This document shows positions 872-20,816 of a stretch of 46,896 nucleotides of DNA, in pieces. Position numbers and translations under genes: made by a program. This DNA comes from a virus: positions 1 through 46,896 of the IMG/VR virus record IMGVR_UViG_3300023175_001362. The stretch is one strand, 5' to 3'. Under the pieces are notes generated by a model. The model had not been told where the DNA came from and did not search any database. It worked only from the letters and a program-made list of their open reading frames with translations. Within the stretch, counting starts at the first letter, position 1, and the number at the start of each line of letters is the position of its first letter.

Positions 872-1831
872 CTAGTCTTTTTTGGCAACTTTATTAGGTA
901 AGCCTTTATGCTTGGTTGAAGCATAATCTTTGGCGTCTTTTTTAGACATTCCTTTAGCGGCTTTAGCGACTTCTTTAGATGCAGGCTTTTCGCCCTTCTT
1001 TGCGGCATGAACCATTCCCATGAATTTCTGCTGAGCTTTTGATTTTGCCTTTTCTGATACTTCGTGTTTTACACTTTCGGATCTAGTACGTTCTTCTTGT
1101 CCGCGAGCTTTTGATCTAATGTAGTCTGCTAGAGTAGTCATGCGATCAGCGGCATCGCCTGCTGGTGTTTTCTTTAATGGATTATCAAAAATACTAAATG
1201 TATTCTTAGTAAGTTGATTTGCTTTAAATTCAAGCATATCGGCAACTTTGTTCAATGGTGCATTATACCTGTTAAGCATGTCTACCATTTGTTGGGCTGC
1301 CTTGTCGTCGCCCATAACAAAGTCTTTAGTAAGGCCTTGCAGTAATTTTTCTACTACACCTATTCCGCCATCGTCGTAACGAGCTTCAAACTTTGCAACT
1401 GCTTGATTTAATTTATCTTCAATACTTTCTTTATACTTGTCTTTAGCAAGACCAGGCTTTTTCTTTGCCGTCATACGAGCATCTGAAACTTTGTTAACAG
1501 TGCCGTTTTTCTTTGGTTTTGCTACTGGTGCTTTTACATCCTTTACTGATGTTACTGTGCCTTTTTTATCTGCCTCACCTAACTGTACTGACTCAAATTT
1601 CATTTCGTAATCTAAGTGATGGTAAACAGAACCAATGTAATCTGCTGATTTAGTAATTTTAGATTGTACCCAACCATCTAAGCCTTCACGCTCAGATACA
1701 CCTTTTAGCATGTCGTGTAACTTAATAGCATATTTGGCAATCTTATACAACTCTGCTCTTGCCATTTGGACTTCGTGGTCCGATTCTGCTCTCATTGCTA
1801 AATCTGCTAAATCTTCATTTACCTTTTTCAT
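872..1831 (-). CDS. Lysine-rich modular protein, candidate internal head protein
   Basis: This 319-residue protein is strongly basic and Ala/Lys-rich. Residues about 20-80 form a helical module containing AELYKIAKYAIKLHDMLK and ending YHHLDYE. I recall it as recurrent in otherwise different proteins of marine T4-like phages. A low-complexity Lys/Ala linker (about 95-135) and a long helical middle (about 140-215) follow, and the C-terminal 70 residues are almost entirely Lys, Ala and Glu. Such composition is typical of DNA-condensing or scaffold-associated proteins. The start is supported by AGAGG upstream of the ATG. The gene sits just upstream of the dsbA promoter and within the block of basic modular proteins. 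Function is unknown; packaging into the head is an inference. Confidence 0.6.
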   Translation of the reverse strand: MKKVNEDLADLAMRAESDHEVQMARAELYKIAKYAIKLHDMLKGVSEREGLDGWVQSKITKSADYIGSVYHHLDYEMKFESVQLGEADKKGTVTSVKDVKAPVAKPKKNGTVNKVSDARMTAKKKPGLAKDKYKESIEDKLNQAVAKFEARYDDGGIGVVEKLLQGLTKDFVMGDDKAAQQMVDMLNRYNAPLNKVADMLEFKANQLTKNTFSIFDNPLKKTPAGDAADRMTTLADYIRSKARGQEERTRSESVKHEVSEKAKSKAQQKFMGMVHAAKKGEKPASKEVAKAAKGMSKKDAKDYASTKHKGLPNKVAKKD

Positions 1832-1834
1832 TGT

Positions 1835-2203
1835 TTACCTCTTGATGGCCTTCCCGCCCATTAAATTATTATTTACGTCTAGTGCATTTTTTGCTGTGCC
1901 GTCTGAGTTTTTCTTTTGTGGTGCTTGTGGTGCACCATAACGTCCACGCTTTTTAGGCTTATGTTTAGCAATTACTGGGTTAGCAACTGTAGCAATATTT
2001 CCTGCACTAGTAGCACCTGCTGTTGCAGTTTCGCCTAGCTCTGCTTTTTTTCGCATAAGCTCTTTACGTTTCTTATTGATCTCAGCGGCAGTTTCTTTAT
2101 CCATAGATTTTGACTTACGGATACTTCTTTCGAGATCATCAAGATCACGAATGTGTCTTAAAACTTTAGACAATGCTGATTCTGTTATATCTCTTATATG
2201 CAT
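1835..2203 (-). CDS. Basic modular protein with capsid-targeting-like leader
   Basis: The 122-residue product begins MHIRDITES. This resembles the MK-x-(aromatic/hydrophobic)-x-(L/I)xE leader of T4 internal proteins, with ITE|S (residues 6-8) as a possible prohead-protease site. Residues 10-55 are a charged helical stretch. Residues 60-75 are a flexible Ala/Thr/Gly segment (TAGATSAGNIATVANP), and the tail is rich in Lys, Arg and Asn and ends GGKAIKR. No enzyme motif is seen. The ATG lies 8 bases after the stop of the 67-residue gene, with only a distant AAGG as ribosome-binding site. Its role is unknown. Head-internal or scaffold-associated is my best guess from its leader and neighbours. Confidence 0.55.
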   Translation of the reverse strand: MHIRDITESALSKVLRHIRDLDDLERSIRKSKSMDKETAAEINKKRKELMRKKAELGETATAGATSAGNIATVANPVIAKHKPKKRGRYGAPQAPQKKNSDGTAKNALDVNNNLMGGKAIKR

Positions 2204-2211
2204 ACTACTAT

Positions 2212-2415
2212 TTAGCCTTTTTTACGTCCGCTCTTCATATTTGCACACCAGTGATACATTTTAGCCTTTTCACCACTTGCATTTTTTGCTTGCTTACGTA
2301 ACTTAGTTACACTTCCTTTACAACTTGCACCTGCTCTTTTGACACGCCCTGGTCTGCTTTTGCCTTTTTTCTTACCATCAGCAAAGTTTTCTATTACAAT
2401 CTCAGCGGCTCTCAT
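2212..2415 (-). CDS. Small basic protein with a Cys...Cys module
   Basis: This 67-residue protein consists of an N-terminal leader (MRAAEIVIENF) followed by a highly basic segment. It ends in a module that starts with GASCKGS, continues through a KLRKQAKNASGEKAK helix and finishes YHWCANMKSGRKKG. The two cysteines are 26 residues apart and could pair or bind metal. I recall similar C-termini at the ends of several marine T4-like phage proteins, where the module seems to be shuffled as a unit. The start overlaps the TGA of the 813-residue gene (ATGA), so the two are translationally coupled. Function is unknown; nucleic-acid binding is plausible from charge. Confidence 0.55.
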   Translation of the reverse strand: MRAAEIVIENFADGKKKGKSRPGRVKRAGASCKGSVTKLRKQAKNASGEKAKMYHWCANMKSGRKKG

Positions 2416-4853
2416 CTAGGGTGTCCAATTGCGTCCAGTGCCTGATCTACATACTCGTAATTCTTATAGTCTGGTATTTCTCCACGATATGGAGAGTTAT
2501 CACCGGCATTCAAGGTCTGGCCCCATGATCTTAACGTAGACTTTAAACTAGCATACTTACCTTTCATTGCGTTTGCCGCTTTAATATAAGCATTAAGAAT
2601 CTTTTTATCTAGTGGCTTACCTGCTTTTTCCCACTTTGCTCTGTTTTCTAGATTCTTTTTATGGGCTTTAAAAATTGTGCCTTTTTTATATGCGGGATCT
2701 TTTTGATCGTACTTAACGTCGCGTACTTTTTCGCCTTTGTAATACATAGACCAGTCTGGAACATCCTGACCATTACCAGCATAAATCTTTGCTATTTTAG
2801 ATTTACTATCCTTAATAAAGTTGTCTAGGCTGCCTGCCTTTTGTATATCATCCATACTAACTGGAACTGTTTTACCATCGGCTAGTTTGATTTCAATCTG
2901 ACTTTTAACTTGATCCACAGATATTTTTGACAAGTCTTGCTTGCCGCCAACGTCTTTTTGCACCATAGTGGATGTCTGCTTGTTAGGCAATGGATTAGTG
3001 TTTGCATCCTGACCAAATGCTTTTGATACAGGAGTCAGTGCCATTAGTCCTGCTAATGCTCCTGCCCCAATATCCTTAGCAGATATTTCATTTATATGTG
3101 AAGTTAAATCAATGCCTGTATTTTTCTTAATATCTTGAACAATCATTGGCCAATCTTCTTTTGACACTTTTCTGCCTAATTTTAAAAGTGTGCTTAAAAG
3201 TTTAGGATATTTTTTATACAAGTTCATGTTAAAAGTAATTTTAACTGCATCATAAAAATAAGGATCTATTTCATTAGTTTCATAAGCCTTTTTAGCAAGT
3301 CCTATAATCTTCTTATACGCAAGTAAGTCTTCTTTTGTTGATTTTATTACACCTTCTTTTAATGGAGCACCTGCTTCTTTAGCAATTTTAATAATGTCTT
3401 GTTTAGCACGATCAATCTCTGCTTGGTGCTTTCTAATTTTAGCATGAGGATTTCCGGGAACATATTCTACACGCATTTCTGCTTCTAGTTTATCAATTTG
3501 ATTTTTGTTCCAGTTGTACTTGTTGTGTATCTTTTCAATCTGTTTTACTTGATCATCCGTAAACTTAGCACCTTGACTTACAAACCATTTAATAAGGTTC
3601 GAAGTAAGTCCTTCGTTAATACTTTCGTTTTTGTCTTTATAAAAGTCAAAGTCAGGTGTTTGCATTACAACCTTGTCCTTCTTAAAGAACACTTCTTTAC
3701 CAAGTATTCTTGCAATCTTTGCAAGAGTTGCAGTATCAGTTCTCGAGTCTAAATCTTGTATAAGGCCAATAACATGATCTCTAAATGCACCTGCCGGCAC
3801 TGTTAAGGATCCTTCTTCCACTGGTTGTTTCATGTGTTGTTGGATTGCTTTTGCTGTACGTTCAAACTTATGATCTTTATGTTTAAAACCAACGCCGCCT
3901 GCATTTGTCCATTTTCTAATGTTTATGCCAAAGTCGTCGATTAGTATATTAGGTGTACCATCTTTGTTTTGAGCATAAGCGGCTTTATCATGTGTAATAA
4001 TAACATCACTTGGCGGAAACTCTTTTAGGTTGTTTTTAATCCATTCACGCTTGTGCGGTTCTGAATTAGGATCGTCTGCTAATGGACTACTTAAAATTTT
4101 GTAAGATCCTTTTACTTGTTTAATAATGTTTAGTAATTGATCCGCATTTGATGTTTTTGGTATTTTTAACCAAAAGTCATCTGTGTCTCTAATTTTTTGT
4201 AGTGCCGCAGGAACATCGTCAATATCTGTAAAGTGATCTTTGTTCATTAGTTTAGCCCACTCGCCGAAGAAGTCTACAAGTACTCCGTCCATATCTACAT
4301 AGATTTCGCTAGTGCTTGCTAGTTCTTTACCTTCGGATGCATAGTAATCTTCAATACTGTGACCACCCTCCATTAATGCCCATTCCATTGGAGTAAATTT
4401 ACTTTCTTTTTTCTTACGGCCAGCACAGTGAGCTTTTTGTGAAAATCCTTTTGGATTATTACAGTTAATAGAGCGTTTATATTTTGCTGACCATTTTTCT
4501 TCTACATCTACGAACTTCATATGATCGTAGTATAACGGATCTTCCTTAACATGGTCAATGGCTATTTTAAGAGCTTCTGATGGATTGTTAGTATGTTCCA
4601 TCTCTTGTCTTATACCCATCTTAAGTTGATTAAGTGTTTCTTTGGATATTTTGCTTTCAGCAAGTCCTAAATTAAACAATACATTAGTTGACTTGCCTTT
4701 TACTTTTTTGCTTAGTGTAGGCGGACGTCCGTCTTTATCTACTTTGTTTCCAAACTTACTTGCTTCGATAGGAATTTGATTGGTGCCGACATCAGGAGTT
4801 GTGTTAACACCTTTTACAATACGACCGTCTTCTGTTAATTCCCATACTTTCAT
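2412..4853 (-). CDS. Large modular protein with HAD-type nucleotidase domain and candidate protease sites
   Basis: This 813-residue protein is mosaic. It opens MKVWELTED, a capsid-targeting-like leader with LTE at residues 6-8. Residues 129-148 form a Cys module (C131, C143, then GRKKK). Residues about 184-340 look like a HAD-superfamily 5'(3')-deoxyribonucleotidase: motif I is DMDGVLVDF (nucleophile D187, D189), K290 sits in HDKAAYA, and ILIDDFG supplies D306/D307. The remaining 470 residues are helical, Lys-rich modules separated by VEE|G (345-347), INE|G (412-414), LKE|G (498-500) and INE|I (587-589), all resembling T4 gp21 cleavage sites. A Gly/Ala hydrophobic stretch follows at about 592-608. 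The HAD call is fairly firm from motifs. Polyprotein processing is inference. Confidence 0.65.
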   Translation of the reverse strand: MKVWELTEDGRIVKGVNTTPDVGTNQIPIEASKFGNKVDKDGRPPTLSKKVKGKSTNVLFNLGLAESKISKETLNQLKMGIRQEMEHTNNPSEALKIAIDHVKEDPLYYDHMKFVDVEEKWSAKYKRSINCNNPKGFSQKAHCAGRKKKESKFTPMEWALMEGGHSIEDYYASEGKELASTSEIYVDMDGVLVDFFGEWAKLMNKDHFTDIDDVPAALQKIRDTDDFWLKIPKTSNADQLLNIIKQVKGSYKILSSPLADDPNSEPHKREWIKNNLKEFPPSDVIITHDKAAYAQNKDGTPNILIDDFGINIRKWTNAGGVGFKHKDHKFERTAKAIQQHMKQPVEEGSLTVPAGAFRDHVIGLIQDLDSRTDTATLAKIARILGKEVFFKKDKVVMQTPDFDFYKDKNESINEGLTSNLIKWFVSQGAKFTDDQVKQIEKIHNKYNWNKNQIDKLEAEMRVEYVPGNPHAKIRKHQAEIDRAKQDIIKIAKEAGAPLKEGVIKSTKEDLLAYKKIIGLAKKAYETNEIDPYFYDAVKITFNMNLYKKYPKLLSTLLKLGRKVSKEDWPMIVQDIKKNTGIDLTSHINEISAKDIGAGALAGLMALTPVSKAFGQDANTNPLPNKQTSTMVQKDVGGKQDLSKISVDQVKSQIEIKLADGKTVPVSMDDIQKAGSLDNFIKDSKSKIAKIYAGNGQDVPDWSMYYKGEKVRDVKYDQKDPAYKKGTIFKAHKKNLENRAKWEKAGKPLDKKILNAYIKAANAMKGKYASLKSTLRSWGQTLNAGDNSPYRGEIPDYKNYEYVDQALDAIGHPR

Positions 4854-5150
4854 TTACAAACTTTTTAAAAACCCTTGTTTTATTCCTACAGCAATTAAGT
4901 CATCTAATCTTTTTTGCATGTCTGGATCTAACACATCTAAACTTTTAAGCATATTAGCAGTATCTTGCATCATCTTTAATTGCTTGCCAAATTGTTTCAT
5001 AGCCTGTTTGTGTTTATCACCGCCTATTCGGTTGACCCATTGTGGATCTGTTTCTGGAGACTGATGTTTAAAATCTTGTTTGTCATCAGGAGATGCCGGC
5101 TGTGTAAATATACTTGGAGCATCATCCTTTATTAAGTCACGAACCTTCAT
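4854..5150 (-). CDS. Small protein with leader-like N-terminus, unknown function
   Basis: This 98-residue protein begins MKVRDLIKDDAP, close to the leaders of its neighbours (MKLRNLYEAS, MHIRDITES) but without an obvious L/I-x-E site. The middle (residues 18-45) is polar and Pro/Asp-rich. The C-terminal half is a Met/Leu-rich helix (about 48-85) suited to a coiled coil. Its stop abuts the ATG of the 813-residue gene (TAA|ATG), and its start overlaps the stop of the 72-residue gene, so all are in one operon. No catalytic motif is visible. It probably belongs functionally with the surrounding block of candidate head-internal proteins. Confidence 0.5.
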   Translation of the reverse strand: MKVRDLIKDDAPSIFTQPASPDDKQDFKHQSPETDPQWVNRIGGDKHKQAMKQFGKQLKMMQDTANMLKSLDVLDPDMQKRLDDLIAVGIKQGFLKSL

Positions 5151-5365
5151 TTTTTGGTGCGTCCTCTAAAATTTACAGGTCCTGTCATAAATGGTTTTGA
5201 AAACCAAAGTTTAAACCATTCATCGTCGCCAGGCTTAATACCACGTTCTCTTTCTTGTTGTTTACGTTGAGTTGCTGTGATGCTAGGATTTTCGTCAATC
5301 TTGTATTCCGAGTAACCTTTGAATTCGTTAATGCCCGCTAATTTTTTAAGTGTATCCAGGTCCAT
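5147..5365 (-). CDS. Small conserved phage protein with WFKLWFSKPFMTGP motif
   Basis: This 72-residue protein has the N-terminus MDLDTLKKLAGINEFKG, in which INE|F (residues 12-14) could be a prohead-protease site. A charged Gln/Arg stretch follows, and then a conserved C-terminal segment PGDDEWFKLWFSKPFMTGP ending in basic FRGRTKK. I recall that aromatic C-terminal segment as a repeated module in marine T4-like phage proteins of unknown role. The ATG at 5365 directly follows the TAA of the 432-residue nucleotidyltransferase-like gene, and its stop overlaps the next start by ATGA. No function can be assigned beyond membership in this modular block. Confidence 0.55.
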   Translation of the reverse strand: MDLDTLKKLAGINEFKGYSEYKIDENPSITATQRKQQERERGIKPGDDEWFKLWFSKPFMTGPVNFRGRTKK

Positions 5366-6664
5366 TTATTTCCCCAGAGCTTTTTTAATATTATCTACAG
5401 CGGCTTTTTCTGCTTTATCTTTGCTATAACCTTTGGGCTTTTTACCTTTGCCTATTGATGTTCTGCGAGGCTTACCACTTACAGCATCTGCATCACGCTG
5501 TGTATCATATTCTTCTTCTCCTATGTCTACACTTTCATCTTTTTTCTTCTTTATAAAAGAAAGCTCTTCTTGATGCAGTTTGGTGATTGCTTGATCTAAG
5601 GAATCAGCATCTTCAATATCTTCTCCTGCAAAATAGTCATAGATGTCTTTCCCCTTCATAAGTAAGAATAGAACAACCGCAGCCGGAATGCCATATTTTG
5701 CAATTTTATCAATGAGTGCTTTGTGATCTAAATAAAATTTTCCTAAGAAACCTAATCCAATTGAAGAAAGTGGTCTTTTGACAACTTCTTTGCCTATTAC
5801 CTTGCCAGTGCCAAGAGCACCTTGACCTACAAGTTTACCAAGTTGTCCTATTATCCAACCGCCGCCTTTAATTGCATTGCCGACAAATTCGTCAAGCTGA
5901 GCCTCGTCTAGTTCAATGCCTTCTTTTTTGGCTTGATCTTTACGTATTTGTTTAAGTCTATCCTGTACTTTTTGACTTAGTGCTTTATCGTCAATTTTTA
6001 GAGTTTTAACTTTTCTAGTAGCACGGGGTTGCCTTCTTGTAGTAAACCCAAGTATTTCGTCTAAATCTGTTTCTGTACTTTCGTCCCTTTGACCCATAAT
6101 TTGTCTTAGTTTCATAAACATCTCCTCAGCATGTGGCTGTGCTAATTTAGTTACGCCGCTCTTGAATCCTTCAAGATCGTTGTTCTCTACATAACCTCTT
6201 AGTTTAGTGCCACTCATGCCGGTAGCATCTGCGGCTTGTGCATCTCTTTCTAATTGCACATAGTTGATTTTGTCAAACTTGTATGGAAATTCAATAGGAC
6301 CTCTTTTGCCTTCTGTCTTACCATTGTAGTCAACAAGAATTTGATAGAGCTTACGCTCTCCTTCTAAAAATGTTACTTCTGTGTAACCTAGTTTATATAA
6401 TCTGTGTGCGGCAAGTGAGATGTTTTTAGCAAGAGCAATGCTAATGCCGTCAAAACTTTTTCTTGCCCAGTCTAGTTTTTCTTGTGACGAAAGCGGGTCT
6501 GTTGGAAGTTTTGCCGCTCTGTCTGTTAAAAATAAAAATGAATCACCTGGTTGTGCTTTTACAGCATTTACGAGAAGCTCGTGACCATTTGTAGCAGGAT
6601 TCATTCTACCTAATGCAAATGACGCAGTTTTACCTGACGCTTCGTATAAGTTTCTCAGCTTCAT
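5366..6664 (-). CDS. Nucleotidyltransferase-like protein with leader and C-terminal membrane-like segment
   Basis: The 432-residue product starts MKLRNLYEAS, with LYE|A at residues 6-9 strikingly like the T4 internal-protein leader ending IAE|A. Residues about 13-190 resemble the cytidylyltransferase/nicotinamide-nucleotide adenylyltransferase superfamily. GRMNPATNGH (19-28) supplies the (H/T)xGH nucleotide-binding signature, and MSGTKLR (150-156) matches the ISGTxxR motif. Further LxE sites occur at LDE 201-203, 252-254 and 257-259. They are followed by a Gly-rich hydrophobic region (about 262-310) and a likely membrane or membrane-active helix (about 325-337, IPAAVVLFLLM). The tail is charged. 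The substrate is unknown; NAD or CDP-alcohol chemistry are options. Head packaging is an inference. Confidence 0.65.
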   Translation of the reverse strand: MKLRNLYEASGKTASFALGRMNPATNGHELLVNAVKAQPGDSFLFLTDRAAKLPTDPLSSQEKLDWARKSFDGISIALAKNISLAAHRLYKLGYTEVTFLEGERKLYQILVDYNGKTEGKRGPIEFPYKFDKINYVQLERDAQAADATGMSGTKLRGYVENNDLEGFKSGVTKLAQPHAEEMFMKLRQIMGQRDESTETDLDEILGFTTRRQPRATRKVKTLKIDDKALSQKVQDRLKQIRKDQAKKEGIELDEAQLDEFVGNAIKGGGWIIGQLGKLVGQGALGTGKVIGKEVVKRPLSSIGLGFLGKFYLDHKALIDKIAKYGIPAAVVLFLLMKGKDIYDYFAGEDIEDADSLDQAITKLHQEELSFIKKKKDESVDIGEEEYDTQRDADAVSGKPRRTSIGKGKKPKGYSKDKAEKAAVDNIKKALGK

Positions 6665-6993
6665 TACAACTCGCCCTTTTTAACTAACTTAGCATCCTGT
6701 CGTACACGTTGTTTAATATCCTCTTTGATATCATTACCTAGTAAAACATCTTTTTCTACATCAATCTTGTACTTTTGACAATAGTGTTCGTAGCAACTAT
6801 CTAATAAATCTTGTAAACCATTTTCAATTTGTTCTTCATCATTTTCTGATTTAGCAATAGTATCTAAAAAAGGTAGATATTTTTTTCTATAAAACATTGC
6901 ATCGTTCTTCATGTGAAAATGCATGTCGTCTGCAACATCAAAGTTTACACTTTGTTCTTGAGGATTTAAATCTGTAAATTCTACTAGTTTCAT
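6664..6993 (-). CDS. Conserved small phage protein (MKLVEFTDLN start)
   Basis: I place the start at the ATG at 6993, giving 109 residues, because it follows the stop of the upstream gene by one base. The frame stays open 24 codons further, but only inside that gene. The protein is acidic, with a conserved-looking core (FHMKNDAMFYRKKYLPFLD) followed by helices containing CYEHYCQKYKI. I recall this MKNDxxFYRKxYxP pattern from hypothetical proteins adjacent to structural genes in T4-like marine phages. Its stop overlaps the start of the nucleotidyltransferase-like gene (TAATG). Function is unknown. Unlike its neighbours it is not Lys-rich, and it may be an assembly or chaperone partner. Confidence 0.55.
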   Translation of the reverse strand: MKLVEFTDLNPQEQSVNFDVADDMHFHMKNDAMFYRKKYLPFLDTIAKSENDEEQIENGLQDLLDSCYEHYCQKYKIDVEKDVLLGNDIKEDIKQRVRQDAKLVKKGEL

Positions 6994-6994
6994 T

Positions 6995-7873
6995 TTACCA
7001 CTTCCTACATGACCAGTAACGTGCCTTTGTTCTTGGTCCTGGATTATCACAGTTATGTCTAGCACGGAATGAACGTCTACGTGCTGGATTAGACTTTTTA
7101 ATTTTCATGTCAGGATCACCAAAGTTAACTTTCTTTACATTGCCAGTCTTTGGATCCTTAACGTATACTTTAAACTTCTTAACATCGCCACGCATTGGCT
7201 TGCCTAGTTTAACTTTACGTCCTTGGTATTCTGCTTCGTCAAGGTCAGTTGCTAAAGGAGCCATTTCGTGGCATGAACTGCATCTTCCGTGTCCGCCATA
7301 TACTTCGTCTTCAAATGGAGCATGACAACACGCACTTAATTCTTCTTCATCTTCGTTGTACCACATAACACCATAGGTTTCAAAAAAGTCATCACCATCG
7401 TATGTTTCTTCTGCAACCTTAAATGGATTTTTAGCGTGTTGGGCTGAAGAAAATTTAAGTCCTAAGCTGGCTATAAATTTATCAATGGCAGTTTTAATAA
7501 GTGGCTTACTGCCTGGAAGAATTCTTGTAGTTCCTGGAATAAGACCGGGCTTTGTTTTCCACCCCATCTGTTGAGCCACTGTTGGTAGTTTAACATTATT
7601 ACCTTTAACATCTACATACTCAAAGTCACCACCTTGTTCGTCCATGGTAATTTCAATATCAAAATCTTCGTGTCCTTCAGCAAACAACATATTTGCTAAA
7701 CGGTTAGCATATTCGTCTGCTTCACTCTCGCTTAATTCTCTAGCAAGTGGAATCTCAATACAAGTTATGTCTTGTTCAGTTTCAAAAATTTCCATGCCTG
7801 GGAAGATACTTTCATTCAAACTTTCTGCAAGTTTAGTTGTTGCTTCCATTGTTACTCTTACAAAGTGTTCCAT
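6995..7873 (-). CDS. Zinc-ribbon protein with basic Cys-containing C-terminal domain
   Basis: This 292-residue protein has three parts. An acidic N-terminal half (1-175) contains LAE|S at 15-17. A zinc-ribbon-like segment has C182/C183 and C198-x2-C201. After LDE|A at 211-214 comes a strongly basic C-terminal domain (EYQGRKVKLGKPM) ending in a C275...C289 motif and a final KW. The last domain recurs, to my recollection, in many marine T4-like phage proteins. Its position directly after an LxE|A site suggests it could be released by the prohead protease. The gene has AAGGA upstream of its ATG. Binding of DNA or of another head component is plausible from charge. No enzymatic activity is evident. 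Confidence 0.55.
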   Translation of the reverse strand: MEHFVRVTMEATTKLAESLNESIFPGMEIFETEQDITCIEIPLARELSESEADEYANRLANMLFAEGHEDFDIEITMDEQGGDFEYVDVKGNNVKLPTVAQQMGWKTKPGLIPGTTRILPGSKPLIKTAIDKFIASLGLKFSSAQHAKNPFKVAEETYDGDDFFETYGVMWYNEDEEELSACCHAPFEDEVYGGHGRCSSCHEMAPLATDLDEAEYQGRKVKLGKPMRGDVKKFKVYVKDPKTGNVKKVNFGDPDMKIKKSNPARRRSFRARHNCDNPGPRTKARYWSCRKW

Positions 7874-8560: not shown

Positions 8561-9214
8561 TTATGCAATTTCTGAAGTAGACACATATTTTATTATACGG
8601 TCAATACTGGCACCTGCAAGCACGGCTAAGTCTATATATTTTTTGTTATTAGTCCAAAAATAGTAGCCTTTGCCTCCGTATCCTCTTGAAATAGAGTCTG
8701 CGGCTTTTTCCCCTATGCGTATATTAGCATTATTTTGTGCAAACTTTGCAAATTCGCTAAGTGTTTTTTCGTTAAGCCAAATCTTATATCGCCAAGCAGG
8801 GTTGTCTTCTATAACAATATTAGGATTTTCGGATAAGAACTTTTGTTCTTTTTCATTGGGCAAGTGTATAGCATATGCTTCTATTTCATAAGCTAAAAAT
8901 TTAAGCCAATCTATATCATTGCTATATATGTTTATAAAAATGCCTTCTGCTCTAATTGTTGTATCACGAACACGACCTTTTAGGTTTTCATAAAGAATAC
9001 AGGCTCTGTTAAAATCTTTTAAATTAACACTTTGTTGGAAGGGACTTGGATGGGGAATAGTTTCCCCATCATCAGCAAACCGTTGCATATAGTCTAACTG
9101 TTCTTTTACATACTGTAAATTGCCGTTGCGAAAGATAGAAGCAATGGATAAATTAGCATCTATCTTAGCAAGGTATTTTTTATAAAACAGTGATTTTGTT
9201 TTATACAGTTGCAA
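8561..9214 (-). CDS. Conserved hypothetical protein, 217 residues
   Basis: No ATG exists near the start. The best start is the TTG at 9214, because GGAG lies nine bases upstream; the TTG at 9229 is also in frame. The gene begins inside the last codons of the clpA-like gene, so translation is probably coupled. The protein opens LQLYKTKSLFYKKYL and is mixed alpha/beta and mildly basic. A Gly-rich patch (SRGYGGKGYYFWTN) precedes the end. I see no known catalytic motif or membrane segment. It sits between the unfoldase gene and structural genes. Function is unknown. Confidence 0.5.
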   Translation of the reverse strand: MQLYKTKSLFYKKYLAKIDANLSIASIFRNGNLQYVKEQLDYMQRFADDGETIPHPSPFQQSVNLKDFNRACILYENLKGRVRDTTIRAEGIFINIYSNDIDWLKFLAYEIEAYAIHLPNEKEQKFLSENPNIVIEDNPAWRYKIWLNEKTLSEFAKFAQNNANIRIGEKAADSISRGYGGKGYYFWTNNKKYIDLAVLAGASIDRIIKYVSTSEIA

Positions 9215-11429
9215 GTTCTTTTTCTCCAACTAATAACTTTAATTCTTCGTCAAAATCAATAGTTAGGTGTCCGCCGTCTTTTAGATCGCCAAACAGTAGA
9301 ACTTTACTTAGTGGAGTTTTAATATCCTTGTCGATTACACGCTGTAAAGGTCTCGCCCCCATCTTTCGATTAAAGCCTTTATCTACCAAGTGATCAATTG
9401 CTTCGTCAGTAACTGACACTTTAACGTTTTTGTCTTTAAGTTTTGTTTTTAGTTCTAGCAAGAACTTGCCAACAATTTTAATCATTGTGTTCTTATCAAG
9501 ACTTCCAAATGTAATTACACCATCAAGTCTATTGCGGAACTCTGGCTTGAAGAACTTGTTAAATTCTTCATCTTCGTAAACATCTTCCTCTTCAGGATCA
9601 AAACCAATTGATGCTTTTTCACTTTGCTCTGCACCTAGGTTAGTTGTCATTACAAGGATAACGTTACGCATGTCTGCTTCTTTGCCATCACTGCCTGTAA
9701 TCTTACCGTTGTCCATCACCTGCAATAGGATTTGCGAAACATCTGGATGTGCTTTTTCAATCTCGTCAAGTAGTAATACACAATTAGGATGTTCCTGGAC
9801 TCTATCAATAAGTTGTCCACTACCTTCGTCGTGTCCTACATAGCCTGGAGGAGAACCAATCAGTTTACTTACACTGTGCTTCTCTTGATATTCTGACATA
9901 TCAAAACGTACAAGTTTAACACCTAGTTGTTCTGCAAGTTGTTTTGACAATTCAGTTTTACCAACACCTGTCGGACCCATAAACACAAAACTACCAATCG
10001 GCTTATTATCACTTTGTAAGCCTGCTTGTGCTACAAGAATCTTATCTACAAGCGAATCAATTGCTTCGTTTTGACCAAACACTGTAAGTTTTAGATTGTG
10101 ATCGAGTTTAGCAAGATTGCTTGTTTCTTTTTGTGCAATATTCTCTGGCGGCAAGTTAACAAACTTAGCAAGTTCAAACTGTACTTGTTCTGCACCTACT
10201 ACTTTTTCGTCAATGTTTCTTACTTTAAATCTACTACACGCAAGGTCAATTAAATCAATTGCCTTGTCAGGTAATTTACGATCTGTCATATATTTGATAG
10301 ATAGTTTTACTGCTTCGTCAATTGCTTCATCTGTAATTGTAGCAACGTGATGATCTTCGTAATACTTTTTAATGCCACGCAAAATATCTTTTGTCACTTC
10401 TGCACTAGGCTCTTCAACAGTAACACGTTGGAATCGACGCATCAACGCACGATCCTTTTCAAAGAACTTGCGATACTCTTCCCAAGTAGTCGAAGCAACA
10501 ACTTTGATGTTGCCTTTTCCTAGTGCTGGTTTCAACATATTAGCAAGATCGCCTGCACTGTCTTTGCCGCCTGCACCTGCACCATTCATCATGTGTGCTT
10601 CGTCAATGAATACAACTACTTTACCTTTTTTCTTAATGCCTGCCATTACAAGTTTAAAACGTTCTTCAAAGTCACCACGGTATTTACTACCAGCAATCAT
10701 TGCACCAATATCTAGATTATAAACTGTATATTCTTTTAAGAAGTTAGGAACGTTATCGTTTACAATGTTATATGCTAGTCCTTCTGCAATAGCAGTTTTA
10801 CCAACACCCGGATCACCTACAAGAAGAACGTTAGACTTGTTTCGTCTGCCTAAACTTAATGCTAAAGATTCTAGCACATCTTCTCGACCAATTACCGGAT
10901 CTACTTTATTCTTTTTAACTTCACTGTTGAGATCAGTACCAAACTGGCGTAGTGCTTTTTGTCCAGCACTTGCTAGTTCAGGATCATCAATTTCTTCATC
11001 AAACGTTTCTAAATCTAATGCGTCTTTATCAACGCCTGCTTTTGTAAGTTCGTAAACAGACCAACTTTTCTTTTCTGTTAACAAACTCATGAATACATCT
11101 ACGATTTCAATAGTATTACGACCACCAAACAATACTTGTGCAAATGCTCTATTTAATACACGCTCAACAGCTTGTGTTTTCTTAGGCTTAAACTTAGTAA
11201 TCTCAGCAGGTAGTGTAATATCCTCTAGTTTTGTTTTTAGATAATGCTCAAGATTCTTTTTAATTAGTTCGTGATCAATATCTCTTTTTTCTAAAAATGA
11301 AACAAGATCGTTATGGCAAAGCATAGCAAAGAGCATATGTTCTAGAGTAATATACTCGTGTCGTAGTTTTTTCGCATCTTCAATTGATTTATCGAAAACG
11401 TCTTGCAAGTTTTTAGATGGTTCTACCAT
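9201..11429 (-). CDS. clpA: ClpA-type AAA+ unfoldase
   Basis: This 742-residue protein has close to the usual ClpA length, with an N-domain (about 1-140) and two AAA+ modules. D1 has Walker A GDPGVGKT (205-212) and Walker B VVVFIDEAH (271-279). D2 has Walker A GPTGVGKT (485-492), Walker B LLLDEIEKAH (552-561) and the sensor-2 region MGARPLQR. An IGF tripeptide (608-610) sits where ClpA and ClpX carry the IGF/IGL loop that docks on ClpP. The long middle coiled coil of ClpB is absent, so a protease partner is expected. No clpP lies in the window, so the host ClpP is the likely partner. It is expressed from its own sigma70-like promoter, next to dnaJ. Confidence 0.9.
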   Translation of the reverse strand: MVEPSKNLQDVFDKSIEDAKKLRHEYITLEHMLFAMLCHNDLVSFLEKRDIDHELIKKNLEHYLKTKLEDITLPAEITKFKPKKTQAVERVLNRAFAQVLFGGRNTIEIVDVFMSLLTEKKSWSVYELTKAGVDKDALDLETFDEEIDDPELASAGQKALRQFGTDLNSEVKKNKVDPVIGREDVLESLALSLGRRNKSNVLLVGDPGVGKTAIAEGLAYNIVNDNVPNFLKEYTVYNLDIGAMIAGSKYRGDFEERFKLVMAGIKKKGKVVVFIDEAHMMNGAGAGGKDSAGDLANMLKPALGKGNIKVVASTTWEEYRKFFEKDRALMRRFQRVTVEEPSAEVTKDILRGIKKYYEDHHVATITDEAIDEAVKLSIKYMTDRKLPDKAIDLIDLACSRFKVRNIDEKVVGAEQVQFELAKFVNLPPENIAQKETSNLAKLDHNLKLTVFGQNEAIDSLVDKILVAQAGLQSDNKPIGSFVFMGPTGVGKTELSKQLAEQLGVKLVRFDMSEYQEKHSVSKLIGSPPGYVGHDEGSGQLIDRVQEHPNCVLLLDEIEKAHPDVSQILLQVMDNGKITGSDGKEADMRNVILVMTTNLGAEQSEKASIGFDPEEEDVYEDEEFNKFFKPEFRNRLDGVITFGSLDKNTMIKIVGKFLLELKTKLKDKNVKVSVTDEAIDHLVDKGFNRKMGARPLQRVIDKDIKTPLSKVLLFGDLKDGGHLTIDFDEELKLLVGEKELATV

Positions 11430-11458
11430 TAATGTTTCCTCTTATTAATATTGTTTGT

Positions 11459-11487
11459 ATAATAGCATATATTGTATTTAAAGTCAA
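11459..11487 (-). promoter_or_regulatory. Sigma70-like promoter for clpA
   Basis: TTGACT (11487-11482) is followed after 17 bases by TATTAT (11464-11459), one mismatch from consensus. The clpA ATG is 30 bases further, with AAGAGG in the leader. Confidence 0.8.
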
Positions 11488-11495
11488 ATTAAAGT

Positions 11496-12272
11496 TTACC
11501 AATAGTTATCGATTACATTTGTTATAGCCTTAGGTATGTCTTTAGGAATAACACCTTTAATTTGTACGAAAAAGTCTCCATTTTTACGTTGTCTTCTACT
11601 AGGTAATCCATGCCCTTTTATTTTTAACTTTGTGCCTGGTTGTGTGCCTGGCGGTACATGTAATTTAATTCTGCGTCCATCTGGTATTTCTATTTCTAAA
11701 TCTATGCCTTTAATCAAATCAAAAACTGCTACTTGTTTAGTACATTCTACATTAAAGCCGTCCGAGGAATATCTAGGATGCTTTAAAATTTGTACTTGAA
11801 CATGCAAGTCTCCAGGTGGCAGTCCTCTAATACTGTTGTCGCCCATTCCTACAAATCTAATAACATCTCCGTGACTTACACCTTGTGGAATATCAATACT
11901 AACTGTTTGTTGTTGTCCAGAAGGTAACTGATAGTTTGCAACTAAACTTTTACCTTTATACACATCTTCTAACATAATATCCACACCAATAGTTATAGTT
12001 CTATTTTGTGGTCTTCTGTTGCCGAACATATTTCCAAATATATCTTCGAATCCGCCCATGCCTGAATGGAATTGAAATTGTGTCTGTGGATTATCGTATT
12101 CTGCTCTTTTTTGAGGATTGCTTAGATGCTGGTATGCTTCATTTATTCGCTTAAATTCTTCTTCGTCACCGCCCCTGTCAGGATGGTGCTTCATACTTTT
12201 TGCTTTGTATGCTTTTTTAATTTCTGTGTCTGAAGCGTTTTTACTAACACCTAAAATAGAATAATAGTCCAT
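11496..12272 (-). CDS. dnaJ: DnaJ/CbpA-type co-chaperone
   Basis: The 258-residue product has an N-terminal J domain (residues 2-63) with HPD at 30-32, the signature that activates DnaK. A Phe/Gly-containing linker (FHSGMGGFEDIFGNMFG) follows, then a DnaJ C-terminal substrate-binding region (about 92-250) with PPGDLHVQVQ and a PPGTQPGTKLKIKGHGLP segment. The Cys-rich zinc finger is absent, so it is a type II (CbpA-like) protein, and it is shorter than the usual 300 or more residues. No phage DnaK is present, so it would act with host DnaK. The start codon is inside a perfect hairpin (12263-12297). The gene lies just downstream of the lysis cassette and upstream of clpA. Confidence 0.92.
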   Translation of the reverse strand: MDYYSILGVSKNASDTEIKKAYKAKSMKHHPDRGGDEEEFKRINEAYQHLSNPQKRAEYDNPQTQFQFHSGMGGFEDIFGNMFGNRRPQNRTITIGVDIMLEDVYKGKSLVANYQLPSGQQQTVSIDIPQGVSHGDVIRFVGMGDNSIRGLPPGDLHVQVQILKHPRYSSDGFNVECTKQVAVFDLIKGIDLEIEIPDGRRIKLHVPPGTQPGTKLKIKGHGLPSRRQRKNGDFFVQIKGVIPKDIPKAITNVIDNYW

Positions 12273-16919: not shown

Positions 16920-17654
16920 ATGGGTGCAAAACGAGCTCGCAAGAGTAATAAAAATCAAAACTTTTATCAAAACGTAGTACAAATTAACAATTACCTTCCA
17001 CAGAAAAAACAAGATGTAAAAATTATTCCAAGAAACAGACACCAAGAGGAATACACACTAAAACTTCTAGACAATTCTAAAAACATAGTGTTTGGTATCG
17101 GCCCTGCTGGTACTGGTAAAACTCTTATTGCTGTTCTTGCGGCAATTAAAGCATTTAAAGAAGGTGATGTAGATCGAATCGTAGTGACACGGCCAGCAGT
17201 ATCTGTTGACGAGGATCTAGGATTTTTACCAGGAACGCTAGAACAGAAAATGGCTCCTTGGACAAGACCTATTTTTGATGTGTTAAGAGAGTACTTTTCT
17301 GCTAACGAGATAGAAGGTATGATTGCAGAAGGAGTGGTAGAAATTGCTCCACTTGCATACATGAGAGGAAGAACTTTCAAAAGGTCATTTATTATTGCAG
17401 ATGAAATGCAAAATGCTACACCTAATCAAATGAAAATGCTTTTAACTAGATTAGGCGAAGAAAGTAAAATGGCCGTCACAGGAGACCTTGCTCAAGCAGA
17501 TAGACTAAAAGACAATGGACTTATTGACTTTGTAAATCAACTGCAAGAAAAGGCTCACGAAACATCTCACTTAGATATTGTGGAATTTTATCATAAGGAT
17601 ATTGAACGCCACGAAGCAGTAAGTGAAGTATTAAAAATTTACGGGGATTATTAA
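16920..17654 (+). CDS. phoH: PhoH-like P-loop ATPase
   Basis: This 244-residue protein contains a PhoH domain, with Walker A GPAGTGKT (61-68) and Walker B IIADEMQNATP (158-168). The LTRLGEESKMAVTGDLAQ segment is the sensor-like part typical of PhoH. The N-terminal 40 residues are basic and Asn-rich. PhoH proteins are ATPases of poorly defined role, linked to phosphate starvation in bacteria and very common in marine phages. It is one of only two plus-strand genes in the window. The AAAAGGAG site supports the ATG. A hairpin follows the stop as a terminator. Confidence 0.93.
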   Translation: MGAKRARKSNKNQNFYQNVVQINNYLPQKKQDVKIIPRNRHQEEYTLKLLDNSKNIVFGIGPAGTGKTLIAVLAAIKAFKEGDVDRIVVTRPAVSVDEDLGFLPGTLEQKMAPWTRPIFDVLREYFSANEIEGMIAEGVVEIAPLAYMRGRTFKRSFIIADEMQNATPNQMKMLLTRLGEESKMAVTGDLAQADRLKDNGLIDFVNQLQEKAHETSHLDIVEFYHKDIERHEAVSEVLKIYGDY

Positions 17655-17690: not shown

Positions 17691-18351
17691 ACAGCTCGTC
17701 TGCGAGCGGAAAGATCTCTGCGATAACCTTAGCACAGGCATGAGCAATTTCCATATGCTCTTTTTGTGTGCCGTTAGCACCACGTAGTTCGATGTAGTGA
17801 ACCCAACTGCGTAGTGTACCATTCATGTATAGTCGTGTTTTAGTAAGTCCTTCTGGAAGTACTTTACGTGCTTGCTCTTTAGCAATGCCATTTGCTAATG
17901 CCCAGTCATAAACTTCCTTAGACATCCATAACACTCTACGTTGGTGCCTTTCCCATTCACGTTGTAATTCTACATTGTCTACTTCGATCGAGTTTTGTCT
18001 GTTCTTTTCGTCTTGTAGTCGTGCTTCTGAAATTTCAAACATATCGCCCATGTCTTCGGGGTTAGCATAACGTTGTGAAAATTCTTGGAAAGAGAACGAG
18101 CGGTGACGCACAATTTGATGAGCAATGTCACGAGTAGTATCAATTTCTAAACAAGCACTGACCATTTCTAATGGTGACCAGTGAGCGTGTTTAATTAGAT
18201 ACTTAATAAGTTTTTCACTAGTTTCTTTATTCATTTGATTGCTTGGGTTAGAGACCCTAGCACAGAACGCAATTAGCTCTTGTGCATTATGTAGTCCTTC
18301 TGCTTTAAACTCTTCTGAAGGTTGCGAGTAAGATACTAGTTTTACGTTCAT
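17689..18351 (-). CDS. thyX: Flavin-dependent thymidylate synthase ThyX
   Basis: I place the start at the ATG at 18351 (220 residues). GGAG lies six bases upstream, and the ATG overlaps the stop of the halogenase gene (ATGA). The in-frame ATG at 18363 would put that Shine-Dalgarno inside the coding region. The signature RHRSFSFQEFSQRY (82-95) matches the ThyX RHRxxSxxxxSxR motif that binds FAD and dUMP. Length is normal. ThyX converts dUMP to dTMP using methylenetetrahydrofolate and reduced FAD, here supplying dTTP for an AT-rich genome. It is the last gene of the gp44-ferredoxin-2OG-halogenase operon and ends at the shared terminator. Confidence 0.95.
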   Translation of the reverse strand: MNVKLVSYSQPSEEFKAEGLHNAQELIAFCARVSNPSNQMNKETSEKLIKYLIKHAHWSPLEMVSACLEIDTTRDIAHQIVRHRSFSFQEFSQRYANPEDMGDMFEISEARLQDEKNRQNSIEVDNVELQREWERHQRRVLWMSKEVYDWALANGIAKEQARKVLPEGLTKTRLYMNGTLRSWVHYIELRGANGTQKEHMEIAHACAKVIAEIFPLADEL

Positions 18352-19844
18352 ATTTTTCTCCATTCTAATTCACGTTCATCCATACTTAAATTTAGATATA
18401 ATGCAAAGTTTTCTATTGCTTCGTCGTGGCTGATAGTTGCAGGTTTTTCATATCCTATTTTTACAACATCCTTCCAATCATCTAAAATTTTCTTTGCTGT
18501 TTCTTTATCAATGTGCTTGTTAGCACCAATTGTTTTTTCAATTTGCATTAACCAGCATAACCAGTTTGCACCGCCAAAAAAGAATCCTTTTCCATCATTT
18601 GGTAATTTTTCTCCACGTTCGATTAATCCTTTATACCATTTATGTGCTTCGCACATTACATGATTTTCTTTTACATAATTCCAAAATGGAGTATCAAAGT
18701 CTGTGTATGCATAATGCATATTGATAAAGTCAATAGCATCTTCATATACTGCCATCATAATAGCATTAAACATATTCACGTCTGCTTGATTGTACCACTT
18801 CTGCCTAATACGTGCGGCCAATTCGTAAATTGATGTTGTAATGCCTGCAAGGCCTGTACTTTCTAACGGTTCAATAAATCCTGCACTTAGTCCGATAGCA
18901 ACTACATTGCCTTCCCACATATTTTTATTGTAGTAAGGAGTCCAATCAATTAGTTTACAATCTTCTGGACTAATTCTGTTATCCCAATATTCGCAAAAAT
19001 AACGTTTTGCTTCTTCGGGATCTGTTACACTGCGATTAAAAACTAAGCCAGAACCAATACGCTCTTGAACAGGAATATTCCAAACCCAGCCGTGATCAAC
19101 TGCTTCGCTTACAACGTAAGGATGTCTTTCTCTATTAATATCTTTATAAGGAACACGGCCAGCTACTGCTGTGTCGCAGAATAATCTTCCTTTTAAATCT
19201 ACACGATCTGGATTCTGTTGTAGTAGTTGTCTAAATCCTGTACAGTCTACAAACAAATCTCCTGAAATATTTCGTCCGTTTTTCAAGTCAATACTTGTAA
19301 TAAACCCGTCGTTGGAACGATTAATATTAATCATTTCGCTTTTAATAATAGTAATTTTACCTTCTAGTTGCTTTTGCATCCAAACAACAAGTTTACTAGC
19401 ATCAACATGCTGTGCATAAGATTGCAAGTTTTGTGTATCAACTCTATTTTCTACACTAATATTAAAAAATGCACCCAGCTCTTGAAAACCTTCGTCCTGA
19501 TAATGAGTCCATGCTTCATACATTGAACTATCGTATTCTGGATATTCTTTGTTTAGTAAAAAAGGATGCCAAACTAGATTATCCTTTTTACCCCAGTTTG
19601 GAAAAAGTATGCCTGATTTATGTGTAGCACCTACTTCGTTAAACCACTCATCTGTTTTAAAGCCGCAACGTTTTAAAAACTTATCAAAAAACAATAATGT
19701 GCCTTCGCCGACGCCTACTGGACTTCCGACTTCTTTATCTACAAGTGTAACATTAACATCTAAGTTACGTGCTAAAAACGCCGCACTAAACCATGCACTT
19801 GTGCCACCTCCTACAATTACTATATCATTTACTTCTCTAAACAT
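18348..19844 (-). CDS. prnA: Flavin-dependent tryptophan halogenase family protein
   Basis: This 498-residue protein has the usual length for PrnA/RebH-type halogenases. The N-terminal FAD-binding motif is GGGTSAW (12-18). K76 in GATHKSG aligns with the catalytic lysine of PrnA, WVWNIP (253-258) is the WxWxIP signature that blocks monooxygenase activity, and EPLESTG (325-331) holds the conserved Glu-Ser pair. All the residues expected for HOCl-dependent chlorination or bromination appear intact. The substrate need not be free tryptophan. Reduced FAD must be supplied by a reductase, and none is in the window. The gene overlaps the 2OG oxygenase upstream by 8 bases and thyX downstream by 4. Confidence 0.9.
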   Translation of the reverse strand: MFREVNDIVIVGGGTSAWFSAAFLARNLDVNVTLVDKEVGSPVGVGEGTLLFFDKFLKRCGFKTDEWFNEVGATHKSGILFPNWGKKDNLVWHPFLLNKEYPEYDSSMYEAWTHYQDEGFQELGAFFNISVENRVDTQNLQSYAQHVDASKLVVWMQKQLEGKITIIKSEMININRSNDGFITSIDLKNGRNISGDLFVDCTGFRQLLQQNPDRVDLKGRLFCDTAVAGRVPYKDINRERHPYVVSEAVDHGWVWNIPVQERIGSGLVFNRSVTDPEEAKRYFCEYWDNRISPEDCKLIDWTPYYNKNMWEGNVVAIGLSAGFIEPLESTGLAGITTSIYELAARIRQKWYNQADVNMFNAIMMAVYEDAIDFINMHYAYTDFDTPFWNYVKENHVMCEAHKWYKGLIERGEKLPNDGKGFFFGGANWLCWLMQIEKTIGANKHIDKETAKKILDDWKDVVKIGYEKPATISHDEAIENFALYLNLSMDERELEWRKI

Positions 19845-20472
19845 TATTATCTCTCAAAATAGGGTGATCAAAAACAGTTAAATTAACTGCTACTGTACAT
19901 CTTAATTTATCGCTTTCTTGTTGTTTCACATAGTGATTTAAGTAAGGAGGGAACCAAATAATTTCTCCTTCTTTTGCTCTTAGAGCAACATCTAAATCAT
20001 TACAATAACTAGGTAGGTCAGCGTGGTTCATTGTAGGCCAAGTAGATCTAATGAGGGCCGCCTGTGGGTTTGTAAAATTAGTTGTTTGGTGTTCGTCGTC
20101 TAGCAGTACATAATGCACTCCGCTCCATGTAATTTGTAAAGGACCGCCTACATGATCGTGCATATGTTGCCAACCGCCTTTGCGACTAAAATTGTACCAT
20201 GTATCTAAGTTAACATGCCAATTAACATTTTCACTAAACCCAAGATCTTGTAACAGTTCTAATATGTTATCTTGATACAACGGATTGACAAAACTAGGAT
20301 CTAACGAGTTAGATTTATCTTCATAGTCTGTATATACTTCTGTACCAATTAGATTTGTTTCAAAGTCATCACCTGGATAAACTTCATCCATTAGATACTT
20401 TTTAATTTTATCGTGGTTCTTTACTGTTTGTTTAACAATAGGAACTTGAAACAATCCTATTTTTTCGCCCAT
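19837..20472 (-). CDS. 2-oxoglutarate/Fe(II)-dependent oxygenase-like protein
   Basis: This 211-residue protein resembles the TIGR02466-type oxygenases common in marine phages. A likely iron-binding cluster is QHMHDHVGG (H103, H105, H107), with the distal His at 180 in PPYLNHYV. R191 in DKLRCTVAVN could bind 2-oxoglutarate. The WSGVHYVLL strand fits the double-stranded beta-helix fold. The substrate is unknown; such enzymes hydroxylate proteins, nucleic acids or small molecules. It lies between ferredoxin and halogenase genes, sharing a base with the former (TAATG) and eight with the latter. The fold call is good, but the exact ligands need structural modelling. Confidence 0.75.
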   Translation of the reverse strand: MGEKIGLFQVPIVKQTVKNHDKIKKYLMDEVYPGDDFETNLIGTEVYTDYEDKSNSLDPSFVNPLYQDNILELLQDLGFSENVNWHVNLDTWYNFSRKGGWQHMHDHVGGPLQITWSGVHYVLLDDEHQTTNFTNPQAALIRSTWPTMNHADLPSYCNDLDVALRAKEGEIIWFPPYLNHYVKQQESDKLRCTVAVNLTVFDHPILRDNNV

Positions 20473-20816
20473 TAATCTTCTCCGGGCTTATCACTGAAGT
20501 AGTTTTCTAATTTGTCAGGTACTCCGTCAAATTCTTCCCACTCTGGCAATGGGTCTTTTTTAATTGTAATGTTTGGCCATTCGTTTGAATATTTTAAATT
20601 TAGTAGTTCCCACTTTTCTCTTTCACCGTCTTCCAATGCATTGTCTGGAAGGATAGCATCGGCAGGACATTCGGGCTCGCATACGCCACAATCAATACAT
20701 TCGTCTGGATTGATTACAAGCATATTTTCGCCTTCGTAAAAACAGTCTACTGGGCAAACTTCAACACAGTCTGTATGCTTACATTTAATACAGTTGTCTG
20801 TAACATAATATGGCAT
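20472..20816 (-). CDS. fdxA: FdxA-type 7Fe-8S ferredoxin
   Basis: This 114-residue protein is very close in pattern to bacterial FdxA/Azotobacter ferredoxin I. C9, C17 and C50 would bind a [3Fe-4S] cluster, and C21, C40, C43 and C46 a [4Fe-4S] cluster. The extra C12 and C25 match the family's additional cysteines. The C-terminal extension includes the [21 protein letters not shown] segment typical of the proteobacterial proteins. It is full length, so it is probably functional and acquired from a bacterium. Within the gp44-to-thyX operon it could supply electrons to a flavin- or iron-dependent enzyme. That partner is inferred only from position. Confidence 0.93.

Follow-up and report, generated by a model that had tools for sequence, protein, structure and literature searches.

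The 46.9-kb viral record analysed here (IMG/VR record IMGVR_UViG_3300023175_001362, called the window throughout) is a fragment of the genome of a T4-like marine myovirus. A block of minus-strand genes at positions 872-7873 is likely to encode cargo proteins packaged in the phage head, built as mosaic polyproteins that would be cut by the prohead protease gp21 and accompanied by a copy of the N-terminal arm of the major capsid protein, gp23. At the level of sequence comparison, we show that the block has N-terminal leaders, a modular organization, a gp21-like logo at module junctions, an arm copy that tracks each phage's gp23, and enzyme folds, and published proteomics places homologues in virions; from these we infer actual cleavage, delivery, enzyme activity and a tethering role for the arm. 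The original prediction, made from the letters of the window, had proposed packaged proteins with capsid-targeting-like leaders, two of them carrying enzyme domains. The predicted sites at internal junctions of the mosaic polyproteins, and the capsid-arm copy in the gene at 1835-2203, go beyond it.

The window codes for a clamp loader, ClpA-like and DnaJ-like proteins, PhoH, ThyX, structural proteins and a partial DNA ligase, and its nearest isolates by protein similarity are Kyanoviridae: cyanophages, Pelagibacter phage HTVC008M and Methylophilales phage Melnitz. Relatives of the 813-amino-acid (aa) protein of the block were found at 204 places in viral contigs, 80 of which were used for locus comparison. 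The gene block is syntenic in most of these 80 relative loci, and comparison of the block with the isolates at the DNA level gave short matches only.

The T4 prohead protease recognizes Leu or Ile at P3 and Glu at P1, i.e. (L/I)xE. All five N-termini quoted in the original prediction are present at the corresponding minus-strand open reading frames (ORFs), and (L/I)xE lies within the first 14 residues of four of them: LYE8|A (5366-6664), ITE8|S (1835-2203), LTE8|D (2412-4853) and INE14|F (5147-5365), where the bar marks the predicted cut. The fifth, MKVRDLIKDD (4854-5150), has no such motif. Two further leaders had not been listed, MRAAEIVIE|N (2212-2415) and MKKVNE|D (872-1831). With the likely start for the gene at 6664-6993, seven of the nine block proteins have [LIVM]xE within 14 residues, the 4854-5150 product not being one of them. 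Comparison across homologues, suggested at the time as a check, bore out the leaders: 24 homologues aligned with the 432-aa protein (5366-6664) all keep M1, L3, R4, L6 and E8, at a mean column identity of 27%. Near-identical leaders (MRLRQLFEAP, MRLRQLYEDG, MKLRELT) stand on unrelated genes of the same relative loci, and leaders also occur on divergent HAD homologues, e.g. MKSIVEVTSINE|E in Melnitz. Leader-bearing gene families are concentrated in the block (13/23 vs 7/50 in the flanks, p=4e-4); leader frequency is 57-91% in six block families of 10 members or more, whereas no flanking family of that size exceeds 36%. These comparisons confirm that the leaders are real and exceed chance. That of the 5147-5365 product is weaker, since its Glu is not kept in all relatives (IGQF, RNKF).

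The relative loci also reveal that the block proteins are mosaics of swappable modules, with several unrelated domains per polypeptide. One basic module, NFADGKKKGKSRPGRVKR..., has a 67-aa gene to itself in the window and elsewhere forms the C-terminal domain of quite different proteins; the residue preceding this module (the NFADG module) is Glu in 46/46 distinct contexts. A profile of Glu at module starts based on BLAST boundaries was blurred by the edges of the high-scoring segment pairs, and was replaced by a k-mer scan for boundaries between variable upstream and conserved downstream sequence, combined with a test of P3. Manual merging of the 42 k-mers obtained gave about 16 modules; 11 of them begin with Glu (p=6e-10 against a Glu background of 7%). 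Because a conserved Glu may merely be the first residue of a module, we tested P3, which lies in the context-variable upstream sequence. P3 was Leu, Ile, Val or Met in 61 of 99 non-redundant, non-homologous contexts, compared to a background of 20% (p=2.5e-19), with no such enrichment at P2 (11/99) or P4 (15/99). The junction logo thus matches the gp21 rule, implying that the proteins are polyproteins predicted to be cut inside the head, and its statistics support the predicted gp21-type cleavage. An alternative is that the leaders and the Glu residues at junctions reflect only targeting or recombination, modules being shuffled at short homologies with no proteolysis between them. The extensive mosaicism fits this idea, as does the fact that conservation starts at Glu in many modules, as if it were part of them. 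We nevertheless consider it unlikely, given the hydrophobic P3 in non-homologous upstream sequence, the lack of enrichment at its neighbours, and the identity of one junction with the gp23 maturation junction.

That junction lies in the 122-aa protein (1835..2203, minus strand), which consists of the leader MHIRDITE|S, a Lys-rich segment, LGE58|TATAGATSAGNIATVANP and a Lys/Arg-rich tail. It carries E|TATAGATSAGNIAT, identical to the junction at which gp23 of the clade is predicted to mature and to the N-terminal arm that follows. The gp23 of relative G001 reads ...RYLAE|NATAGATSAGNVATLNRVILPVIRRVMP, and the dominant junction among 74 clade gp23 sequences is YLxE|(S/T)ATAGATSAGN(V/I)AT. All 15 residues of ETATAGATSAGNIAT (residues 58-72, encoded at 1988..2032, minus strand) are identical to the gp23 of five contigs (L136, L143, L156, L168, L176), with only 4-6 of 15 codons shared between the window copy and these gp23 genes. 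The window copy scores z 16.6 over shuffled controls, the reference being clade gp23 rather than that of the window phage itself. The copied segment corresponds to the part of gp23 that links the maturation site to the arm helix: similarity continues for about 25 residues beyond the site and ends where the conserved arm helix (SLIRRxMP) begins, often with a Lys-rich stretch following the copy. T4 gp23* folds its first 25 residues into an N-fist in contact with four subunits (PMC9958956).

A block segment resembling the arm was seen in 44 of 83 sequences examined, almost always right after Glu. Searching with the copied segment of the window recovered gp23 in 12/12 contigs and a separate second copy in three. 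In a 210-kb genome the copy directly follows the leader (MKIKEILE|SATAGATSAGSIAT, vs YLSE|SATAGATSAGNVAT in its own gp23), while the copy of G001 is more divergent (GE|NSSAPIVAANVASVANP). Among isolates, 9 of 12 have another protein that copies the arm of the phage's own gp23, with z of 9-26 against shuffled arms, including phages whose arms are quite different from that of the window clade: S-T4 (gp23 arm GGGAYYRGSGQTDSGAPTGGFDPVL, copy GGGAMYRGSGREDSGSPTAGYDPAL) and P-HM2 (gp23 arm TNVGPINTQTTSAGAVDGFDPIL, copy TNVGPINTQTTGKGAIMGFDPIL). Own-arm copies occur likewise in P-SSM4, S-CREM2, S-ShM2, S-SCSM1, S-CAM9, S-SSM7 and DSL-LC02. Where arms diverge most (S-T4, P-HM2, P-SSM4, S-CREM2, S-ShM2 and the window clade) the own copy matches best, which does not hold for all closely similar arms (S-CAM9, S-SSM7, DSL-LC02); similarity to the own gp23 is 108 in S-T4, vs at most 54 in the regions of other phages, and 100 in P-HM2, vs at most 43. 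In T4-type coliphages we saw no arm copy, the few matches listed for a T4 arm query being capsid proteins.

Only 62 of 135 identical residues use the same codon in the isolate copies. As codons mostly differ, the arm copy does not stem from recent DNA copying, and we rejected recent gene conversion as its source. The copy could instead be a functionless relic of a partial gp23 gene duplication, in keeping with the confinement of similarity to the gp23 N-terminus and the weak similarity in three isolates. This is highly improbable: similarity to the own gp23 protein persists despite the divergence in codons, in every cyanophage examined the copy is found upstream of gp61, and two of the arm-copy proteins, SSCSM1_97 and S-CREM2 gp160, are among those detected in virions. 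The arm copy also probably explains why several small cyanophage proteins are annotated as 'major head protein'; two such non-capsid proteins, P-SSM4_163 (L096:9937-10476) and S-ShM2_188 (L184:5993-6853), presumably owe their public annotation to it.

The folds of both enzyme domains of the original prediction were confirmed by models. The 432-aa protein (5366..6664, minus strand) has the leader MKLRNLYE|A, followed by the nucleotidyltransferase-like domain (residues 12-190; PHROG 3041, E 9e-24) and a C-terminal part predicted to be helical and partly hydrophobic, with candidate sites at LDE203|ILGF, LDE254|A and LDE259|F. Sequence searches of the PDB with either enzyme domain gave no match at E<=1, and fold comparison was therefore used. 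The model of the 432-aa protein contains a confident nucleotidyltransferase domain at about residues 12-200, which resembles NadD, PPAT and NMNAT structures in Foldseek. It has the motifs NPATNGH and SGTKLR, and G27, H28, S151 and K154 are invariant, and T25 nearly so, in the homologue alignment. The domain thus has an NMNAT/NadD-type nucleotidyltransferase fold and is predicted to be a cytidylyl/adenylyltransferase. The HAD nucleotidase-like domain of the 813-aa protein (PHROG 2643, E 4e-21) lies at about residues 184-345. Residues 64-230 of the modelled piece are predicted with confidence, the top Foldseek matches being the human cytosolic and mitochondrial deoxyribonucleotidases (cdN/mdN), and its DMDGV and DD motifs are invariant in 28 aligned homologues. 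The model points to a 5'(3')-deoxyribonucleotidase (NT5C-like) fold with the corresponding predicted activity.

Packaging of the block proteins is supported by homologues in the virion proteomes determined by mass spectrometry for the cyanophages S-SCSM1, S-CREM2 and S-SM1. Synechococcus phage S-SCSM1 has 45 virion proteins, NMNAT among them (PMC9602691). Its record annotates ORFs 89-93, 95 and 97 as virion proteins, including the NMNAT homologue ORF91, with the leader MKSFLQFLKE|A, and the stand-alone DUF3008 protein SSCSM1_93. In S-CREM2, the cytidylyltransferase gp154 (leader MKNFSSFLTE|A), gp155, gp156 and gp160 were detected in virions (Table 3 of PMC10665884), and the cytidylyltransferase cluster T4-GC190 was detected in S-SM1 virions (PMC3037559). 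A packaged NMNAT/cytidylyltransferase is therefore already described for cyanophages, and the earlier statement that no such enzyme set was known for this type of phage was wrong for the nucleotidyltransferase.

A number of observations weigh against the proposal of gp21-cut, head-packaged cargo with a capsid-arm copy. Neither gp21 (Peptidase_S77) nor gp23 was recognized among the ORFs of the 47-kb window. Both are present in relative G001, and Peptidase_S77 is also present in four isolates; most partial relative contigs searched yielded neither protein, because these contigs are fragments. The predicted gp23 site of the clade aligns about 12 residues downstream of the T4 site, and no measured cleavage product was found in the available portions of the literature on these phages. 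Across the whole S-SCSM1 genome the leader signal is weak (11/47 virion vs 26/228 other proteins, p=0.036), most virion proteins being tail proteins. The copies in S-SM2, HTVC008M and Melnitz are non-significant (z 1.3-2.0) and are candidates by syntenic position alone. In S-SCSM1 and S-T4 the copy stands at the protein's own N-terminus without a Glu site. Lastly, the authors of both proteomics papers caution that the enzymes detected might be carry-over.

This caution is the basis of another explanation, namely that the block proteins are enzymes of early infection that do not belong to the virion, and were detected in it as carry-over of abundant proteins. The S-SCSM1 data argue otherwise: the virion-flagged cluster is contiguous and includes 61- and 69-aa proteins without obvious enzymatic role, whereas the neighbouring replication enzymes (primase, nrdA, nrdB) are not flagged. 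Together with the resemblance of the leaders to the T4 capsid-targeting sequence (CTS), this makes carry-over very unlikely. The arm copies that lack a Glu site bear on a different possibility, that the copy serves as a competitive substrate or timer for gp21 and not as a capsid-binding arm. The window-clade copy does include the P1 Glu and the P1' residues, as such a decoy would. In S-SCSM1, S-T4 and others, however, the copy starts at the N-terminus without a Glu site, and similarity reaches much further past the site than a protease needs; a pure decoy role was accordingly judged less likely, and we regard the substrate or timer explanation as rather unlikely overall. Since some copies lack the site yet begin with the arm, what the copies have in common is apparently a free arm and not recognition by the protease. 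For this reason we favour, with moderate confidence, an arm acting in trans, docked to the shell and holding the basic tail there. The fuller proposal is more tentative, and we put it at slightly less than even chances: a separate small virion protein of marine T4-like phages would copy, and co-evolve with, the mature gp23 arm/N-fist of its own phage, release or expose it as a free N-terminus and insert it in trans into the capsid lattice, where it would anchor a polybasic tail or other cargo to the shell.

We propose the following scheme for the block. The leader M[KR]xRxLxE| would send each protein into the prohead core, as the T4 CTS does, and gp21 would then cut after (L/I/V)xE at the leader and at module junctions. 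Within the maturing head, these cuts would release the NMNAT/NadD-like nucleotidyltransferase, the deoxyribonucleotidase-like HAD enzyme and a number of small basic modules, and the released cargo would be ejected together with the DNA, so that the packaged proteins could act on host nucleotides at once. The 1835-2203 product would release or expose a copy of the mature gp23 N-terminal segment, followed by a polybasic tail; this copy would most likely occupy the capsid site of the gp23* N-arms/N-fists, tethering cargo or DNA to the shell.

The precedent for such a scheme in T4 (CTS, Alt, removal of propeptides by gp21) is reviewed in PMC9026906. The block shares with T4 IPI-IPIII and Alt a short leader ending in (L/I)xE|, basic cargo, a packaged enzyme (Alt in T4) and processing by the prohead protease, predicted here, and the cyanophage homologue leaders, MKxFxxFLxE|A, are very like the T4 sequence MKTYQEFIAE|A. 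It differs from T4 in several respects. T4 cargo has about one unit per protein, whereas the block proteins string several modules together, each junction having a predicted site; the enzymes are a nucleotidyltransferase and a HAD nucleotidase; the leader is M(K/R)xRxLxE; and a capsid-arm copy is present. In T4 the gp23* N-fist is part of gp23 only, while in the phages studied here it also occurs as a free copy on another protein.

Polyvalent proteins (Iyer et al. 2017, PMC5512222) are likewise multidomain mosaics that enter with the phage DNA and are presumed to be cut into units, and clade modules such as the NGHHRY ParB-like one resemble members of that theme. They typically have their own metallopeptidase domain, whereas the predicted cutter of the block is the head protease; no zincin-like metallopeptidase or other hub domain was found in the block proteins in Pfam and PHROG scans, and the text of PMC5512222 mentions neither cyanophage nor DUF3008. 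The NMNAT/cytidylyltransferase virion proteins of cyanophages (S-SM1 T4-GC190, S-SCSM1 ORF91, S-CREM2 gp154) are homologous enzymes with a similar neighbourhood and leader; the available portions of the reports on them give no account of leaders, junction sites, module mosaicism or a capsid-arm copy. The Dar system of phage P1 (DarB CTS) and the head proteases of phiKZ/SPN3US also involve N-terminal packaging signals and Glu-specific head proteases that process cargo, in different phage groups. We know of no repeated inter-module sites or capsid-arm copies in these systems. The open-licence literature searched yielded no description of arm copies, nor of the junction rule or sites, in the phages studied here.

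Most genes of these very abundant ocean viruses have no assigned role, and the analysis gives a sequence rule, a leader plus (L/I/V)xE at module borders, for reading their packaged, injected cargo. It also offers a testable case of a capsid-protein arm copied by a cargo protein, which bears on the loading, anchoring and release of internal proteins. If true, the combination of a trans-arm with gp21-cut polyproteins would be a head-loading scheme not known from T4.

The remaining architecture of the block, all on the minus strand, is as follows. The 813-aa modular protein (2412..4853) has the leader MKVWELTE|D, a RIVKGVNTT/DUF5661 module and a VEE119|KWS..CNNPKGFSQKAHC module ahead of its HAD domain, with candidate sites at LAE66, VEE119, VEE347|G, INE414|G, LKE500|G and INE589|I. 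In relatives, other cargo modules include ParB/sulfiredoxin-like NGHHRY domains (C-terminal parts of 813-aa homologues; L007, L015, L036, L044 and others), and the same C-terminal parts contain peptidoglycan-binding-like modules and a Cys-rich one, MCPxxCCGxPxxECxCGPxCxHC. The stand-alone 67-aa basic, Cys-containing module (2212..2415) has the leader MRAAEIVIE|NFADGKKKGKSRPGRVK. The 319-aa protein (872..1831) carries a VNE6|DLADLAMRAE module, candidate sites LGE86|A and VSE260|K, and a C-terminal basic DUF3008 domain. The conserved 72-aa protein (5147..5365) starts with MDLDTLKKLAGINE|F. The 98-aa protein MKVRDLIKDD (4854..5150), which is without a gp21-type site, has no relative among the 80 relative loci compared and is probably a variable cargo slot or unrelated. 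The 292-aa protein (6995..7873) has LAE17|S/LNE21|S, junctions VAE155|ETYDGDDF and LDE213|AEYQGRKV, and a conserved basic CDNPGPRTKARYWSCRKW module at its C-terminus. The small conserved protein MKLVEFTDLN... (6664..6993) has a probable ATG start. The listed ORF 6664-7065 (minus strand) overlaps 6995-7873 out of frame, and the apparent conservation of its extra N-terminus is due to the overlapping RARHNCDNPGPRTKARYWSCRKW coding sequence being read in another frame; the start is probably the ATG at 6993 and not the GTG at 7065.

Some further genes of the window deserve mention. Just upstream of the cargo block, and in many relatives too, a ClpA/HSP100-like ATPase (9201-12272, minus strand) adjoins a DnaJ-like protein. 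A PhoH-like gene (16920-17654, plus strand) is on the strand opposite to nearly all other genes of the window. Among structural-type genes, 28028-29596 (minus strand) encodes a subtilase-like serine protease with GHGTHCAGT and GTSMASP motifs, a possible virion or tail-associated protease. A tryptophan-halogenase-like gene (18348-19844, minus strand) lies beside genes for a 2OG-Fe oxygenase-like protein (19837-20472) and a ferredoxin (20472-20816).

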